DNA of 20,072 nt, from positions 1 through 20,072 of IMG/VR virus record IMGVR_UViG_3300025892_001356. The stretch is one strand, 5' to 3'. The DNA is from a virus. Positions 1,866 to 12,857 of the stretch are shown one piece after another. The position numbers and the translations under genes were made by a program. The notes under the pieces were generated by a model. The model was given only the letters and a program-made list of their open reading frames with translations, searched no databases and was not told where the DNA came from. Position 1 is the stretch's first letter. Every line of letters begins with the position of its first letter.

Positions 1866-2565
1866 GCTATCTGTAACAGTCATGACTGCATCATTCGACA
1901 CAGAAAGAAGGCTGTCTGTTGAAAACCTAATAAGGGAAATACACCCCGAAAGAATTAAGAATCTTACTATTGATTTTCAAATCATATCTGATTGGTGGAA
2001 ATCTGGACCATGGCCTACTGCAAAAAGATGCTGGGAGCATGGGGTCAGGATTGATGGAACTCATCACATGATACTCCAAGATGATATAACAGTCTGTGAT
2101 GATTTCTTATTGGGTGTCCATGAAGTAATACGAGCGTGTCCTGATTCTCCTATTTCTCTTTATGCTAATCGTAAAATTTGCGAACAGGCAAAAGAACAGG
2201 ATGCAAGATGGGTGAGAATACCAGATGGAATTTGGGGTCCAGCGGTTATCATGCCAACCGACCATATTCCCTTGTTTCTTTCTTGGGAAGAACAGCATAT
2301 CAAGCCATCTTTCAAGCATGATGACAGTCGACTTGCAATGTGGTGTGTCAAGACAGGCAACAAGGTTATGTGTCCGCAACCTTCTTTAGTCCAGCATAAG
2401 GCGGCGCAGAAATCCTTGTTAGGGCAGAGCCACCCATCAAAAGTAGCGAGGTGGTTTGAAAGACAAACCCCACTTTCCAGAGATTGGAAAAATGGGGCTA
2501 TCCTTGATGCGCCTAATGGTTTGTCGAAGGGCTATTATGAATATTACATCAACCCCATTGCCTAG
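1858..2565 (+). CDS. Glycosyltransferase-like protein (GT-A type, putative)
   Basis: The protein has 235 residues and overlaps the upstream methyltransferase by eight bases. It begins with a short hydrophobic strand (LSVTVMTA). It has a QDD acidic motif within HMILQDDITVCDDF (about residues 70-83), as expected for the metal- and sugar-nucleotide-binding site of GT-A glycosyltransferases; the GIWGPAVIMP segment also fits phage glycosyltransferases. No signal peptide or membrane segment is seen, so it should act in the cytoplasm. Possible targets are modified DNA bases, virion proteins or a host surface glycan. Coupling to a methyltransferase suggests one modification pathway. The fold assignment is by motif only. 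Its 3' end overlaps the convergent leftward gene by 17 bases. Confidence 0.6.
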   Translation: MIRLSVTVMTASFDTERRLSVENLIREIHPERIKNLTIDFQIISDWWKSGPWPTAKRCWEHGVRIDGTHHMILQDDITVCDDFLLGVHEVIRACPDSPISLYANRKICEQAKEQDARWVRIPDGIWGPAVIMPTDHIPLFLSWEEQHIKPSFKHDDSRLAMWCVKTGNKVMCPQPSLVQHKAAQKSLLGQSHPSKVARWFERQTPLSRDWKNGAILDAPNGLSKGYYEYYINPIA

Positions 2566-2989
2566 AGATGTATGCATCATCAGAATGGTATTCTTTTGTA
2601 AAGGCAAGGGCATCAGTTAAGTAGGTTTGGTCAATACCGAAATCTTTATAGCCGTTAAGGATTCCCTCGTAATATTGTTTTGGCGGTAAGCCTAATCCGT
2701 GGCTATTCATAACGTAAGCCATAAACTGTTTACCGTCCGCGTTTACAAAATACTCCTTTCGGTACAGGCTGGGGTATCCCTCATAGCGGTCAAGTGCCTT
2801 TTCACACTGGTCAGTTATAGTCCAAAGGCCGACAGGGCAATGCAATCCTTTGGCTGGTATCATATCAGCAACGCCTTTGAATACTAATCGGTAGTCAGGC
2901 AGTAATATAAATCCCATTGGTTTTGCCGCAGGGCAACGTATCGCCATTTGGTTTTTATTCAAGTTTGATCCGTAAGCTAAATATATCAT
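2549..2989 (-). CDS. Gamma-glutamylcyclotransferase / AIG2-like protein
   Basis: The protein has 146 residues, the usual length for the family. It opens with the substrate-binding YGSNL loop (residues 6-10) and has the catalytic glutamate in DRYEGYP (E70), followed by the conserved Y-x-K-x-x-x-V strand and an AYVM strand. Family members cleave gamma-glutamyl amides, releasing 5-oxoproline. The gene lies 15 bases downstream of the amidoligase on the same strand and has the AACCACGGAGA leader, with GGAGA five bases before the ATG. The pairing suggests that it removes or trims gamma-glutamyl-type bonds made by the amidoligase. The true substrate is unknown. The family call is strong; the partnership is inferred from position and from known gene associations. 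Confidence 0.9.
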   Translation of the reverse strand: MIYLAYGSNLNKNQMAIRCPAAKPMGFILLPDYRLVFKGVADMIPAKGLHCPVGLWTITDQCEKALDRYEGYPSLYRKEYFVNADGKQFMAYVMNSHGLGLPPKQYYEGILNGYKDFGIDQTYLTDALAFTKEYHSDDAYISRQWG

Positions 2990-2994
2990 TGGTC

Positions 2995-3025
2995 TCTCCG
3001 TGGTTTATGCCGCAAGCTGCGCGGC
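2995..3025 (-). promoter_or_regulatory. Repeated leader AACCACGGAGA plus hairpin before the cyclotransferase
   Basis: On the minus strand AACCACGGAGA occupies 3005-2995, five bases before the ATG. A GCCGC/GCGGC stem (3009-3013 with 3021-3025) lies exactly three bases further upstream, inside the end of the amidoligase gene. GGAGA is the ribosome-binding site; the AACCAC part is not explained by pairing with 16S rRNA. Confidence 0.6.
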
Positions 3026-4003
3026 TCTGTTGTTTAGGTAATCTTGAACCTCTGGCTCAACTTGGTTGAACATAGAATCGGCTGTTGCGAAAAAGTAAGT
3101 GGCAAACCAATCCGAGAAATTCTGGTTAAGCTGGCGAGTGGCTGGCTCATACATATTTTCTAATTGGTCGAGTGTGAGAAAATCGCGCAACGCACCATTG
3201 GAATCAAACAGCTTGTACCCTGTATTTGCAAAACGCAAATCCCAACCTTGTGCGGCAACCTGTTCACGAATCTCACCAAACGCAATCTTTTTTCTGCGCT
3301 TGTAAGTGAGGCTTGCACCTTGAGTCGGGTTTTTGCTGGCCTCAACAAACGCCATTAGGAACTTAATCCAGTTGCCAATTTTAACATGGTCATATGAACC
3401 CGCGTGTTGGCGGAACTCAACAGTCCCATATTCAACAATCTTGGCTAGGCTCACTTTGTGGTACTTGCTAGCAATGGTGGGGAGCGAACTAATCCTAGTA
3501 GCGGCTTGAATACGAGAGAGAGGGTATCCGTGCCGAGAACTAGGTTTGATGCTGTAACACCATTGGTTCGCATCCCCACGTCGAGAACGAGGAAGAAACG
3601 TATCAATCTGTTCCTCGTAATCTCCATATCTTGTAACCACATTTTTTACATGGTCAATCGTCATATCCGCCCAACTTAAATGAACGTGAACACCACACTG
3701 GTAATCAACATAAAGTCCATCCATTTGGCTGAGAACAAAAAGCACCTTGCGAAGCTGAACAAACGCATCCTCACCTCTCATTGGTGGGCTTACTAACTCG
3801 CCACCAATAGGGTCTGAATAGCCATTTGTGGAAACCGTTGCATCGGTTACAATCTTCCAATATGGCTGGGTGCGGTGGTTATAGCCTTCTCTGCGAACCT
3901 CAATATCCGTTAGGTTGTTACGCATGAATCTCTCAACCTCTGCAAGTCTAACGCCTTTAAACTCAATCTCAACGCCAACTTTAAAATTATTATAAATATT
4001 CAT
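3005..4003 (-). CDS. Amidoligase (Amidoligase_2 family, glutamine-synthetase-like fold)
   Basis: The protein has 332 residues. Family motifs appear in order: GVEIEF (10-15; metal-binding acidic residues), GGELVSPP (67-74), CGVHVHLS (103-110) and TVEFRQHAGS (194-203). Together these are diagnostic of the ATP-dependent COOH-NH2 ligases related to glutamine synthetase and glutamate-cysteine ligase. They join a carboxylate to an amine, making peptide-like amides on small molecules or proteins. No signal peptide or transmembrane segment is present. It is the first gene after the strong leftward promoter at 4044-4075 and precedes the gamma-glutamylcyclotransferase. The ATG is set by GGAGA five bases upstream inside the repeated leader. 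The biochemical class is well supported; the substrate cannot be read from sequence. Confidence 0.93.
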   Translation of the reverse strand: MNIYNNFKVGVEIEFKGVRLAEVERFMRNNLTDIEVRREGYNHRTQPYWKIVTDATVSTNGYSDPIGGELVSPPMRGEDAFVQLRKVLFVLSQMDGLYVDYQCGVHVHLSWADMTIDHVKNVVTRYGDYEEQIDTFLPRSRRGDANQWCYSIKPSSRHGYPLSRIQAATRISSLPTIASKYHKVSLAKIVEYGTVEFRQHAGSYDHVKIGNWIKFLMAFVEASKNPTQGASLTYKRRKKIAFGEIREQVAAQGWDLRFANTGYKLFDSNGALRDFLTLDQLENMYEPATRQLNQNFSDWFATYFFATADSMFNQVEPEVQDYLNNRAAQLAA

Positions 4004-4043: not shown

Positions 4044-4076
4044 ATTATAATGGCACAACTGTTTACCATTGTAAAC
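4044..4076 (-). promoter_or_regulatory. Leftward promoter with palindromic operator over the -35 box
   Basis: On the minus strand TTTACA (4075-4070) is followed after 17 bases by CATTAT (4052-4047), with a perfect TATAAT (4049-4044) overlapping it. A perfect palindrome, GTTTAC-CATT-GTAAAC (4061-4076 on the plus strand), covers the -35 box. The same arrangement recurs at 12783-12812. A repressor bound here would block the polymerase. Confidence 0.7.
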
Positions 4077-4113
4077 ACCTAAGATGCAATAAAACGCATT
4101 TTTTTAATTTTTT

Positions 4114-4425
4114 TTATTTATTAAAGATAAAAGATTCCAATTCATCATCTGACATACTGTCAAAATCTGGCTCCACCTCTACAGATGGCATGGGCTTTCT
4201 AGGGGTTAGCTTGCGCTTTCTTGGGCGTTTAAGCGGCTGTGAAGGCTGTTTAGTCTTTTTTGTTGGTTTGGGTAGCTCTGGCAAGATAAAGACGCTCTCA
4301 AGCGTGGTAAATTTGGTATCGCATTTCAGGCATTGCCGCCATCTAGTTTTGCCTTTTGGTATATCTCTGGGCTTGAGTGCTACGACTTTTAGCTCTGTTG
4401 ATTTGCATTTTGGACATTCTAGCAT
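4114..4425 (-). CDS. NrdR-like zinc-ribbon protein (putative DNA-binding regulator)
   Basis: The protein has 103 residues. The N-terminus has a four-cysteine zinc ribbon: C4-x2-C7 (CPKC) and C32-x2-C35 within RWRQCLKCDTKFTTLE. Its spacing and wording match the zinc ribbon of NrdR, the repressor of ribonucleotide reductase genes. The ATP-cone domain of NrdR is absent; instead there is a lysine/arginine/proline-rich linker (about 54-80) and an acidic tail. It may bind nucleic acid or act as a phage transcription factor. It is the first leftward gene of this region, followed by a separate promoter for the amidoligase. It lacks the AACCACGGAGA leader and has only a weak ribosome-binding site (GTGAAGA). 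The zinc ribbon is certain; the function is inferred. Confidence 0.75.
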   Translation of the reverse strand: MLECPKCKSTELKVVALKPRDIPKGKTRWRQCLKCDTKFTTLESVFILPELPKPTKKTKQPSQPLKRPRKRKLTPRKPMPSVEVEPDFDSMSDDELESFIFNK

Positions 4426-4516: not shown

Positions 4517-5104
4517 ATGTCAGATATAAAATGGGCGGCAGATAAAGTAGAGCGTAGACAGCTTTCAGAGATTATCCCTTATGATAGAAACTCCAAGCTA
4601 CATCCCGATACTCAAATTGACCAACTGGCTAACAGTATCCGTGAGTGGGGTTGGACTATCCCAATCTTAATTGATGAGAAGGACACTGTGTTAGCTGGTC
4701 ATGGGCGTTTGTATGCGGCTCAACAGCTTGGCTTGTCTGATGTACCTTGCATGGTAGCAGAGGGTTGGTCAGAGGAAAAAAAGAGAGCTTATGTCATAGC
4801 GGATAATAAGCTGGCAGAAAAAGGCGGCTGGGATAATGCCTTGCTTTATTCTGAGTTAAAGCAAATCAAGAGCAGTAGCTTTGACCTCTCCCTAATGGGC
4901 ATGGACGATGAATTTGATTTGATGGATTTCAGCCCGAATCTTGAGCCTATGACAAGCTACGATGAGATAACTGAAGGCGATATCAACAAAGCTAGTGATG
5001 GCATTAACTCATCTTTTGCTGAAAGAGGCATGGACAATTCACAAAAGGGGCATGAAGTAATGTGTCCACATTGTGCAAAATCATTCAGATTTGAAGGAAT
5101 GTAA
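4517..5104 (+). CDS. ParB/Srx-domain protein with C-terminal CPHC knuckle
   Basis: The protein has 195 residues. The N-terminal half is a ParB N-terminal (ParB/Srx fold) domain: a VERRQLSEIIPYDRN strand, the helix QIDQLANSIREWGW, and the signature AGHGRLYAA (60-68), which forms the nucleotide-binding loop in the family. The sequence after it (ADNKLAEKGGWD) matches the phage ParB-like proteins often found with or fused to DNA methyltransferases. The C-terminus ends in CPHCAKSF (183-190), half of a zinc knuckle. It probably binds nucleotide and DNA, but partitioning is unlikely because no ParA is seen. The start is supported by AGGAAG. It overlaps the IbrA-like gene by one base (TAATG) and forms an operon with it. 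Confidence 0.85.
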   Translation: MSDIKWAADKVERRQLSEIIPYDRNSKLHPDTQIDQLANSIREWGWTIPILIDEKDTVLAGHGRLYAAQQLGLSDVPCMVAEGWSEEKKRAYVIADNKLAEKGGWDNALLYSELKQIKSSSFDLSLMGMDDEFDLMDFSPNLEPMTSYDEITEGDINKASDGINSSFAERGMDNSQKGHEVMCPHCAKSFRFEGM

Positions 5105-6297
5105 TGAAATTCTATTTGGATGAGAATGTTTATGATGCCGCCATTGAACGGATACAATACCTGTTTGATGAGTTTGATGAGGTTATAGTCTCATTCTCTG
5201 GGGGCAAGGATAGCACCATAGTTCTTAATCTTTGTTTGGAGGTGGCGGAATCCAAGGGTAAATTGCCTATCAAGGTTATGTTTGTTGACCAAGAAGCCGA
5301 ATGGGATGCTGTAATTCAATACGTCCGCAAGGTTATGAATGACCCAAGGGTTGACCCTCAATGGCTACAAGTGCCTATCAAGCTGTTCAATGCGGCATCA
5401 ATGGAATCCTCATGGTTGCATTGCTGGGCAGAGGGTGAAGAATGGATGCGACCTAAAGAGCCTAACAGCATACATGAAAATGTTTATGGTACGGACAGGT
5501 TCACGACTATGTTCACCAAGTATCTCCAATACACCTTCCCTAATAAAACAATAGCCAATGTCGGGGGTGTAAGGGCAGAGGAAAGCCCAAACAGAAGGGC
5601 GGGTCTGACTACAGGGCAGACGTATAAGCATATAACGTGGGGCAAAAGAGAGAGCGAAAAGCTAGGGCATTACACATTTTATCCAATTTATGATTGGAGC
5701 TATAAGGATGTATGGAAGGCAATCCACGATAACCAGTGGGATTACTGTACAATATACAACGAATTTTGGCGGCATGGTATCCAGCCCATGAAAATGAGGG
5801 TATCAAACCTTCATCATGAAACAGCCATTGACCAGCTATTCTATTTGCATGAGATGGAAGCGGACACTTGGAACGCTCTCACTAAGCGGCTAGGGGGTAT
5901 AAACCAAGCCAAGCATATGTCCAAGAAGGATATGTTCTCCATCAAAACCTTGCCGTGGATGTTCTCTGATTGGGTGGAATACAGGGATTACCTTGTGGAT
6001 AACCTTGTGCAGACTGAGGAACGTAGGGAGGTCTTTCGTAAAGAGTTCAAGAAAATGGATGTCAAATTTGCGAACATGGCACTGCCAGAAGAACGTCACA
6101 AGAGCGAAGTCCTATGTATTTTAGCGAATGATTGGCATTTTACCAAGTTACAGAACTTTCTTGGCAGACCCGAAACAATCAATTTCCTCAAGCTACAGAG
6201 AGGTCAAACCATTGATTGGAATAGACCAGAGCGTGATTTGCGCTACATCAAACCAGAACATAGAGGGCAGCATGAGCCAGAATCACCCAATAAGTAA
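5104..6297 (+). CDS. IbrA-like PAPS-reductase-family protein (ATP-pyrophosphatase)
   Basis: The protein has 397 residues. It has the PP-loop SGGKDS (residues 32-37), which binds ATP for adenylation chemistry in the PAPS reductase / DndC / ThiI superfamily, then a MFVDQEAEWD segment typical of the family's second strand. The protein is much longer than assimilatory CysH (about 240 residues) and lacks the C-terminal ECG(I/L)H motif needed for reduction of PAPS, so sulfate assimilation is unlikely. Length and the partner gene fit IbrA, known in E. coli as a regulator of immunoglobulin-binding eib genes together with the ParB-like IbrB. Biochemistry of IbrA is unknown. The start overlaps the upstream stop (TAATG) with GAAGGA as ribosome-binding site; the end overlaps the IbrB-like gene by 26 bases. 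Confidence 0.85.
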   Translation: MKFYLDENVYDAAIERIQYLFDEFDEVIVSFSGGKDSTIVLNLCLEVAESKGKLPIKVMFVDQEAEWDAVIQYVRKVMNDPRVDPQWLQVPIKLFNAASMESSWLHCWAEGEEWMRPKEPNSIHENVYGTDRFTTMFTKYLQYTFPNKTIANVGGVRAEESPNRRAGLTTGQTYKHITWGKRESEKLGHYTFYPIYDWSYKDVWKAIHDNQWDYCTIYNEFWRHGIQPMKMRVSNLHHETAIDQLFYLHEMEADTWNALTKRLGGINQAKHMSKKDMFSIKTLPWMFSDWVEYRDYLVDNLVQTEERREVFRKEFKKMDVKFANMALPEERHKSEVLCILANDWHFTKLQNFLGRPETINFLKLQRGQTIDWNRPERDLRYIKPEHRGQHEPESPNK

Positions 6298-6832
6298 CGT
6301 AATGTGGATGCCGATAGATAAGGTGGAGCCAAACGACTACAACCCTAATTCTGTCGCGGGTCAGGAAATGAAACTGCTACATACGAGCATAAAGCATGAC
6401 GGCTATACCCAGCCAATCGTAACAATTTATGATGAGACCAAGGATAAATACGTTATCGTTGATGGCTTCCATAGGTACTTTACTTGCAAAAACAACAAGG
6501 ACATATACGACAGCACTGATGGCTGTGTTCCAATTGTAGTTATCAAGAAAGACATCAATGAACGCATGGCGGCTACTGTAAGGCATAATAGAGCCAGAGG
6601 CGCACACAGCGTATCAGGTATGTCTAACATGGTTTTCAATATGCTTGATAATGGCTGGGCGGATGCCGATGTATGTAACCACTTGGGTATGGAGCCTGAT
6701 GAACTGTTACGTCTGAAGCATATAACAGGCTTCTCCAAATTGTTTGCAGATGCAGAATATAACAAGGCTTGGGTAAGCAAGCATCAAATACTGCTAAAAA
6801 AGCAAGTGGAAGAAGAAAATAAGATTAACTGA
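6272..6832 (+). CDS. IbrB-like ParB-domain protein
   Basis: The protein has 186 residues counted from the ATG at 6272, which follows a GAGGG ribosome-binding site; an ATG at 6128 in the same frame would run deep into the preceding gene and is not favoured. The domain has the ParB/Srx features VEPNDYNPN, the helix EMKLLHTSIKHDGY and the signature VDGFHRYF (63-70). A conserved RHNRARGAH (104-112) and a helical C-terminus follow. DGFHR plus R-x-N-x-A-R-G-x-H is the pattern of IbrB-type proteins. It overlaps the IbrA-like gene, as expected for an ibrAB pair. It probably acts with that protein in a nucleotide-dependent complex. Whether it cleaves, marks or only binds DNA is unknown. Confidence 0.82.
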   Translation: MSQNHPISNVMWMPIDKVEPNDYNPNSVAGQEMKLLHTSIKHDGYTQPIVTIYDETKDKYVIVDGFHRYFTCKNNKDIYDSTDGCVPIVVIKKDINERMAATVRHNRARGAHSVSGMSNMVFNMLDNGWADADVCNHLGMEPDELLRLKHITGFSKLFADAEYNKAWVSKHQILLKKQVEEENKIN

Positions 6833-10824: not shown

Positions 10825-11544
10825 ATGACTATTCCATCTCTTTTGGGATTGCAGTTCAATCAAGGCAGATTTTACGGTCATTTAACTGAATATAAATTTG
10901 GCTTCAATCCCGCAATAGGCACAGATGAGGAAACAATATGGGATGGCAGTTCATTATATGCCCACCCATCTTCAGCTTCAGTGATGAAGGTATCAAGCAG
11001 TAACGCATCTGATACAGCTACAACCGTTATTGTGTCAGGGTTAGACTCTAATTATTTACCAATAACAGAGACCATTACTTTGAATGGTCAAACTGCTGTA
11101 AATACATCAAATGAATATTTGAGGGTCAATAGAGCCAAAGTAACATCTAATGCTCCACAGGGTGATGTGTATGTTGGCACAGGGGCGGTATCATCAGGCG
11201 TTCCAGCAAATAAGTTTGCCAAGATAATTATTGGTGAAAATCAAACCTTGATGGCTGTTTGGAGTGTCCCCGCTGGATATACAGCGCATTTACACAAAAT
11301 AACACTTTCATCAGGAACAACTGCCGCTAACAAATTTGCAACAGGCAGATTAAAAGTCACACCATTCGGTCAGGTGGCGCAAACAAAAGCTGTTGTCACA
11401 TTACACAATACGCATATCGAGATGGATTTTGGTGTGCCTCTAATGATTGATGAAAAAAGTGATGTTGAATTAAGGGCATTGGTGAGTTCTGGGTCAGATG
11501 CTATATCTGGCACTATGACGTTTGTTTATGTAAAGAATGACTAA
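10825..11544 (+). CDS. Virion structural protein of unknown role (beta-rich)
   Basis: The protein has 239 residues, rich in threonine, serine, valine and alternating beta-strand patterns. It resembles proteins commonly annotated as hypothetical in marine phage head modules. The segment GLDSNYLPITETITLNGQT is typical of such beta-sandwich proteins, and the repeated turn/strand pattern suggests a trimeric or decorative surface protein. It has no signal peptide or catalytic motif. Its place between the portal and the MuF-like head protein points to a head or neck component. It has an AGGGGAT ribosome-binding site and overlaps the next gene by eight bases. Confidence 0.6.
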   Translation: MTIPSLLGLQFNQGRFYGHLTEYKFGFNPAIGTDEETIWDGSSLYAHPSSASVMKVSSSNASDTATTVIVSGLDSNYLPITETITLNGQTAVNTSNEYLRVNRAKVTSNAPQGDVYVGTGAVSSGVPANKFAKIIIGENQTLMAVWSVPAGYTAHLHKITLSSGTTAANKFATGRLKVTPFGQVAQTKAVVTLHNTHIEMDFGVPLMIDEKSDVELRALVSSGSDAISGTMTFVYVKND

Positions 11545-12316: not shown

Positions 12317-12487
12317 TTAATACATCTTTTTGCCAACGCTGTTTCTGCTAGGGGAAAGGTAAATTTCATATTTGCTAGGGTCTTGCTTGCGTAATTTACG
12401 CATATCCCTTGCAGAGCCTTCTGCTTCAATTATTTGGGTATCTTTGTTTACCAATTTATAAGCAGTGCTTTTAGGAAAATAATTCAT
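12317..12487 (-). CDS. Small protein of unknown function (56 residues)
   Basis: A short leftward ORF begins MNYFPKSTAYKLVNK and ends SVGKKMY. The start follows the shared AACCACGGAGA leader (12506-12496), with the ATG eight bases after it. A hairpin lies three bases upstream of the leader. The protein is basic, lacks cysteines and has no membrane segment; the strand-like and helical stretches (EAEGSARDMRKLRKQDP) suggest a compact fold. It is the second gene of the leftward insert, and its stop is 12 bases from the MuF stop. The family is not recognised. Coding is supported by leader conservation and by tight packing. Confidence 0.65.
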   Translation of the reverse strand: MNYFPKSTAYKLVNKDTQIIEAEGSARDMRKLRKQDPSKYEIYLSPSRNSVGKKMY

Positions 12488-12531: not shown

Positions 12532-12741
12532 CTATGCGTTACCGCTTAATACTCTAATTGCCATAATCTCTCTTGCGGCATCCAATCTTTTCTGTAGGTT
12601 TTTAATTACCTTTGCGGAAGTGCCAGCAGGGTGTGGGTTATCAATCTCTTGTTGTATCCATGTTGGGTAAACCCGCAACACTCGCTCTAAAGACTCTTGG
12701 CTGTTAATCATAATTTCTTTGTGGCGTTTCATGCTAATCAT
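12532..12741 (-). CDS. Small helical protein of unknown function (69 residues)
   Basis: The ORF begins MISMKRHKEIM and is predominantly helical and charged, with the middle segment VYPTWIQQEIDNPHPAG and a helix KVIKNLQKRLDAAREIMAIR. It has no cysteine and no membrane segment. The start is set by the shared leader AACCACGGAGA (12757-12747), five bases before the ATG. It is the first gene downstream of the strong leftward promoter at 12783-12811. The setting, a short independently promoted leftward unit inside the head operon, is that of a moron gene. No family is recognised; anti-host, regulatory and anti-defence roles are all open. Confidence 0.65.
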   Translation of the reverse strand: MISMKRHKEIMINSQESLERVLRVYPTWIQQEIDNPHPAGTSAKVIKNLQKRLDAAREIMAIRVLSGNA

Positions 12742-12782: not shown

Positions 12783-12812
12783 AATATAGGGGTGTTGTTT
12801 ACTATTGTCAAC
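12783..12812 (-). promoter_or_regulatory. Leftward sigma70-type promoter with operator-like palindrome
   Basis: On the minus strand TTGACA (12811-12806), a perfect -35, is separated by 17 bases from TATATT (12788-12783). A palindrome, GTTTAC-TATT-GTCAAC (12797-12812 on the plus strand), covers the -35 box. It differs from the 4061-4076 operator at two of 16 positions, and the -35 hexamer sits at the same offset in both. Confidence 0.8.
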
Positions 12813-12857
12813 ACATAAAATGATAATAATTGAAAAAAAGTGAAAATAATTGTAGAT

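Follow-up and report, generated by a model that had tools for sequence, protein, structure and literature searches.

Gene clusters that contain an amidoligase and a gamma-glutamylcyclotransferase (GGCT) are known from phages or prophages of Pseudoalteromonas, Pseudomonas, Arthrobacter, Terrisporobacter and Clostridium (PMC5498523, PMC11945000, PMC5513430, PMC11253131, PMC11318856), where, following Iyer et al. 2009, they are mostly read as a means of modifying peptidoglycan against superinfection. In the published cassettes the two enzymes are accompanied by a COOH-NH2 ligase, an Ntn aminohydrolase/GATase and an ATP-grasp enzyme, and their proposed role is an alteration of the host wall that blocks superinfection (PMC5498523, PMC11945000); the work of Iyer et al. 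2009 and Hardies et al. 2013 is used here as conveyed by citing papers. Multi-gene modules of this type have been cited as peptidoglycan modifiers since 2009, and in the literature as far as it was accessible no report of a test of that role was found.

The pair of adjacent minus-strand enzyme genes described here lies in a 20,072-base record of a marine bacterial virus (the window), for which a whole-window nucleotide search of a phage collection gave 0 matches. The original prediction presented the pair as a candidate undescribed system, which is too strong given that clusters with both genes have already been described in the five genera above. Judged from its gene content, the pair is a stripped-down, widely conserved two-gene form of the known phage module. 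What does appear to be new, in that no description was found in the accessible parts of the literature on phage amidoligase clusters, is the occurrence of the two-gene form across the clade, the conservation of the dyad promoter and the apparent exchange of the cassette.

Two enzyme genes and their predicted folds

The amidoligase gene (3005..4003, minus strand) is first in transcription order and encodes an Amidoligase_2 enzyme of 332 amino acids. It is followed after a gap of 15 bases by the GGCT gene (2549..2989, minus strand), which encodes a protein of 146 amino acids with the AIG2/GGCT fold and whose end overlaps by 17 bases the end of a convergent glycosyltransferase (GT) gene at 1858-2565 (phage glucosyltransferase-like, phrog_854). 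The amidoligase matched the Pfam family PF12224 (Amidoligase_2) with E=1.6e-30 and 107.3 bits, which passes the curated cut-off of 22, and the GGCT matched PF06094 (GGACT) with E=1.1e-9 and 39.3 bits, which passes the cut-off of 22.8. PHROGs agreed with Pfam for both proteins (phrog 2443 for the amidoligase and phrog_2520, 3e-28, for the GGCT). The two reading frames, their common strand and spacing, and their complete motif sets are as the original prediction had described them. The residues that it named also lie where it had placed them, E12/E14 in the amidoligase and E70 in the GGCT, and E70 aligns with the glutamate of the human GGCT active-site motif.

AlphaFold2, run on alignments of the window proteins with their IMG/VR relatives, gave confident models of both proteins (pLDDT 94.7 for the amidoligase and 94.2 for the GGCT). 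Comparison of the amidoligase sequence with solved structures gave no meaningful match, so a fold search was used. The best Foldseek matches of the amidoligase were YbdK, Dop (depupylase), PafA (Pup ligase), glutamine synthetase (GS) and gamma-glutamylcysteine synthetase (GCS), with significant E values of 1.7e-6 to about 1e-3, and all top matches were in the glutamine-synthetase-like fold class. The likeness to these enzymes is one of fold class, with modest TM-scores (about 0.28-0.40 by query length) and 8-14% identity, and the phage amidoligase is shorter. Activation of a gamma-carboxylate by ATP and transfer to an amine are established for GS, GCS, PafA and polyamine synthetases, as is gamma-glutamyl phosphate chemistry for several of YbdK, gamma-glutamylcysteine ligase, PafA/Dop and glutamine synthetase. 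The GGCT matched human GGCT (E about 1e-10) and B. subtilis YkqA, with which it shares the fold, the YGSN motif and the catalytic glutamate; however, identity is 22-23%, and the phage protein is shorter and is encoded with a ligase. Both reading frames are real, functional-looking, widespread and intact enzymes, with a chemistry that is predicted from their families and folds.

The amidoligase is made up of a GS/GCS-like catalytic domain (about residues 7-220) and a small C-terminal alpha-beta-beta-beta-alpha region (about residues 236-290). The latter region is common to the marine clade, is without a family match and gives a weak hint of a HicA-like fold. Its assignment as a HicA-like RNA-binding domain was dropped because there was no match in Pfam or PHROGs and the hhalign probability was just 37%.

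Conservation of the pair and comparison with larger modules

The pairing was examined in scans of IMG/VR viral contigs. Among the best 80 of at least 415 confirmed amidoligase-anchored relatives, a GGCT was present at 69 loci; in all 69 the two genes share a strand and the amidoligase is upstream, and in 68 they lie within 400 bases. The reciprocal set, which held the best 80 of at least 591 confirmed GGCT-anchored relatives, had an amidoligase at 63 loci; the two sets overlap and contain near-duplicates, and genes were detected by profiles built in this analysis. Residue conservation was counted after dereplication at 90% identity, in 114 amidoligases and 94 GGCTs plus those of the window. 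The ExE, HxH and ExR metal/ATP residues of the amidoligase are each at least 98% conserved (n=115; E12 99%, E14 98%, H106 100%, H108 99%, E196 100%, R198 100%), as is E70 of the GGCT at 100% (n=95), with Y6-G7-S8-N9 at 96% or more. Rare adjacency of the two genes or mutated catalytic residues would both speak against the original prediction, and both were looked for. Pairing at 69/80 loci and conservation of E12/E14 and E70 at 98% or more instead favor its central claim, a co-directional unit of two intact, complementary enzymes that is kept across many phages.

The situation in cellular genomes is different, as a recognizable GGCT was found within the fetched DNA at only 2/42 amidoligase loci, so that amidoligases also work without a GGCT. 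Across relatives, the distances of the amidoligase and the GGCT correlate with each other (r 0.74-0.93) and correlate more weakly with those of the neighboring PAPS-reductase-like or glycosyltransferase genes (r 0.31-0.60). For the amidoligase, the values were 0.40 with the PAPS-like gene, 0.58 with the GT, 0.80 with the primase-helicase and 0.91 with TerL, and the mutual correlation of the pair is about equal to its correlation with TerL or the primase-helicase.

The cassettes of Pseudoalteromonas RIO-1/PSA-HP1, phiEco32, LUZ24/PaP3 and Vibrio 1.293.O share Amidoligase_2 and AIG2/GGCT with the window pair and likewise lie amid replication genes (PMC5498523, PMC11945000). However, five to seven genes make up the known cassette, among them a COOH-NH2 ligase, an Ntn aminohydrolase/GATase and an ATP-grasp enzyme, whereas the pair has only two genes, is in reverse orientation and has its own dyad-bearing promoter. 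The larger module was seen in Vibrio phage 1.293.O, where the GGCT is beside amidoligase, aminohydrolase and ATP-grasp genes, and Pseudomonas phage O4 is a further carrier. In 21 records (the window fragment, an overlapping contig and 19 relatives), most of which may be incomplete, neither the COOH-NH2 ligase (PF14395; 0/21, control phage O4 positive) nor the Ntn aminohydrolase/GATase (PF13522, GATase_6; 0/21, positive controls 14/14) was detected. For the ATP-grasp enzyme, the R2K_3 (PF14243) model alone found none in 17 marine records, with a match that is weak even in the control phage. The lack of the COOH-NH2 ligase and GATase in about 20 relatives points to a two-gene minimal form of the multi-ligase module. 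With the predicted make and break enzymes nearly always adjacent, the problem comes down to a single ligase, a single candidate bond and 5-oxoproline as the sole cleavage product, so that two purified proteins would suffice for a direct test.

Smaller clusters differ from the window pair in other ways. The Arthrobacter cluster AL phages (Kovu, Laroye) also have an adjacent GGCT and amidoligase on one strand (PMC5513430), but their GGCT comes first and belongs to a divergent branch (18% identity), and a gene with a glutamine-amidotransferase domain comes after, giving the order GGCT, amidoligase, amidotransferase in Kovu. Terrisporobacter phage TPDSL_ph1 and C. clostridioforme prophages have the amidoligase followed by the GGCT, but with two amidoligase ORFs and in Gram-positive hosts (two amidoligases and a GGCT in TPDSL_ph1, PMC11253131), and the TPDSL_ph1 genes are on the same strand as their neighbors, unlike the window pair. 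Bacillus 031MP004 has an amidoligase with the GGCT four genes on. Relative L019, which has a similar PAPS-like gene (55%), carries at 562-2248 a distant amidoligase (21%) on the same strand as its neighbors, and the ORF after it, which starts with MCVI, resembles a class II glutamine amidotransferase on inspection by eye.

Promoter, orientation and probable exchange of the cassette

The cassette promoter (4047..4075, minus strand) has a -35 box TTTACA (4075-4070), a 17-base spacer and a -10 box CATTAT (4052-4047) preceded by TG. Overlapping its -35 box is a palindrome, TGTTTAC-N4-GTAAACA (4060..4077), which is an exact match and, with its conserved dyad, a putative operator; the window dyad reads GTTTAC-AATG-GTAAAC (GTTTAC-N4-GTAAAC) with the -35 box inside it. 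The original prediction had considered this a strong promoter. By itself it has only a 9/12 match to consensus, but the comparison with relatives speaks for a real promoter that carries a conserved dyad. A promoter-like match was found in 45/53 amidoligase upstream regions, and a dyad with at least 5/6 paired bases in the same register in 26 of these 45, compared to 1.5% in shuffled sequence; the 26 loci are from diverged phages that are related to each other and so do not count as independent events. In some relatives the letters differ but the symmetry is kept (GTTGAC-N4-GCCAAC, GTTGAC-N4-GTCAAC), as a site bound by a protein would lead one to expect.

A second copy of the promoter/operator (TGTTGACAATAGTAAACA, -10 TATATT) is at 12783..12813 on the minus strand, upstream of ORFs 12532-12741 and 12317-12487. 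These two minus-strand ORFs (69 and 56 amino acids) match no known families. The overlapping contig, G020 (21,357 bases), shares 9,529 identical bases with the window and extends past its left end, and it has more promoter/dyad copies at 10974 and 17588, in the cassette direction and each toward small ORFs. In the context of this contig an ERF single-strand annealing gene runs in the cassette direction, and Cro/C1-type HTH proteins are nearby; candidate proteins of this type on the overlapping contig are at L208:1983-2183 and L208:7829-8038. We infer early, repressible expression of the cassette by way of a putative repressor, and the conserved dyad promoter offers a handle on the timing of its use. 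The direction of the cassette is opposite to that of the replication and packaging genes around it; counted by cluster, the pair was on the opposite/same strand in 36/2 cases for the PAPS-reductase-like gene, 25/0 for the terminase and 20/2 for the primase-helicase. The opposed orientation and the dyad promoter shared with other small genes of the phage appear to be a new feature.

Comparison of the window with its sister phages (L004/L015) showed 97-99% protein identity in the flanking GT and ParB but 67% in the amidoligase and 70% in the GGCT. Identity at 4-fold sites between the window and L004 was 0.58 for the amidoligase and 0.44 for the GGCT, compared to 0.85 for the GT and 0.87 for ParB. 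Because silent sites in the pair differ too, recombination with another lineage is a better explanation than fast protein evolution alone. This new feature, a diverged pair between near-identical flanks, suggests that the cassette has been exchanged as a unit between phages.

Possible roles of the pair and its genetic neighborhood

The reading that we prefer, with about even confidence, is that this separately promoted two-enzyme module forms a single gamma-glutamyl amide bond and cleaves it again, and that its target is most plausibly a cell-wall precursor amine. The amidoligase would use ATP to activate the gamma-carboxylate of glutamate, which would then be joined to the amine, and the GGCT would cyclize the glutamyl group to 5-oxoproline and free the amine again. 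GGCT acts by attack of the free alpha-amine of a gamma-glutamyl residue on the gamma-amide, which releases 5-oxoproline (PMC12756093). Since this chemistry requires a free alpha-amino group, a bond common to both enzymes would carry a terminal L-gamma-glutamate and not an internal peptide link. No signal peptide was apparent by eye in the pair's proteins, so the substrate is probably cytosolic, and precursors are likelier than the finished wall. Altering such a cytosolic precursor amine early in infection may limit superinfection. The target is proposed by analogy with the peptidoglycan cassettes, an analogy that is weakened by the missing COOH-NH2 ligase and GATase in about 20 relatives.

It is also possible, though held only tentatively, that the two enzymes are an auxiliary metabolic pair that works on small molecules. 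The amidoligase would then add a gamma-glutamyl group to an amine such as a polyamine or an amino acid, which would buffer the compound or make it harmless while the infection proceeds, and the GGCT would recycle or break down gamma-glutamyl compounds, glutathione precursors among them. A GS-like gamma-glutamylspermine synthetase has been shown biochemically, which is a precedent for amine glutamylation (PMC11841054), and a phage with an amidoligase, a GGCT and a glutathione synthase has been proposed to aid nitrogen metabolism (PMC10945688). The nearest solved folds of the amidoligase include YbdK and gamma-glutamylcysteine synthetase, and the GGCT fold is closest to human GGCT. However, the resemblance of Amidoligase_2 to the polyamine and cysteine ligases is distant, at the low identities of the fold matches, and the divergence or exchange of the cassette is faster than that of core genes, which is seen more often in genes involved in conflict than in housekeeping metabolism. 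If two opposing enzymes drew on one pool, ATP would be wasted unless time or substrate kept them apart, so the two may instead act on different bonds. The amidoligase would then attach a peptide or an amino acid to an acceptor that is a protein or part of the envelope, with the GGCT clearing or counteracting a host gamma-glutamyl modification. Such a division fits the lack of a nearby GGCT at 40/42 cellular amidoligase loci and in Porphyromonas phages with an amidoligase, as well as a Heliusvirales phage with a GGCT beside a weakly similar amidoligase-like neighbor. We regard it as unlikely, given that order and adjacency are nearly fixed in the window's phage clade and that the genes co-diverge, which favors one pathway.

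Quite unlikely is a reversible tagging or protecting-group system in which a terminal gamma-glutamyl group would for a time cap an amine of a specific macromolecule of the host or the phage, under early control by a phage repressor at the shared palindromic operator and with exchange driven by an arms race. The original prediction suggested a counter-defense system or a modification of nucleic acid or virions, which we consider highly improbable. The early-type promoter common to other small genes, the nearby methyltransferase and glycosyltransferase genes and the exchange of the cassette would agree with it, but neither the amidoligase nor the GGCT matched the PADLOC defense models at E 0.01, no known amino-acid base-modification genes were recognized beside the pair, and the neighboring glycosyltransferase gene lies on the other strand and took no part in the exchange of the cassette. 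No evidence was found for the virion-protein or DNA-base target that had been suggested.

Upstream of the cassette is a gene for a stand-alone NrdR-type zinc-ribbon protein of 103 amino acids (4114..4425, minus strand; PF22811, E=2.7e-8), which is present in L004 and L005 and was not detected in L018; it was dropped as a third core member because only the nearest relatives have it. The idea that the cassette is a prophage gene of an integrating phage was also dropped, as there were 0 tyrosine integrases in 19 relatives, many of which may be fragments. The methyltransferase gene at 1185-1865 has 48% protein identity and 0.35 identity at 4-fold sites to that of L004, with neighbors about 97% identical, and would be a second exchanged gene. 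A trio at 4517-6832 (ParB-like, PAPS-reductase/DUF3440-like, ParB-like) resembles IbrB/IbrA and has weak similarity to DndC and BrxP, and a PAPS-like gene is near 38/95 pair loci.
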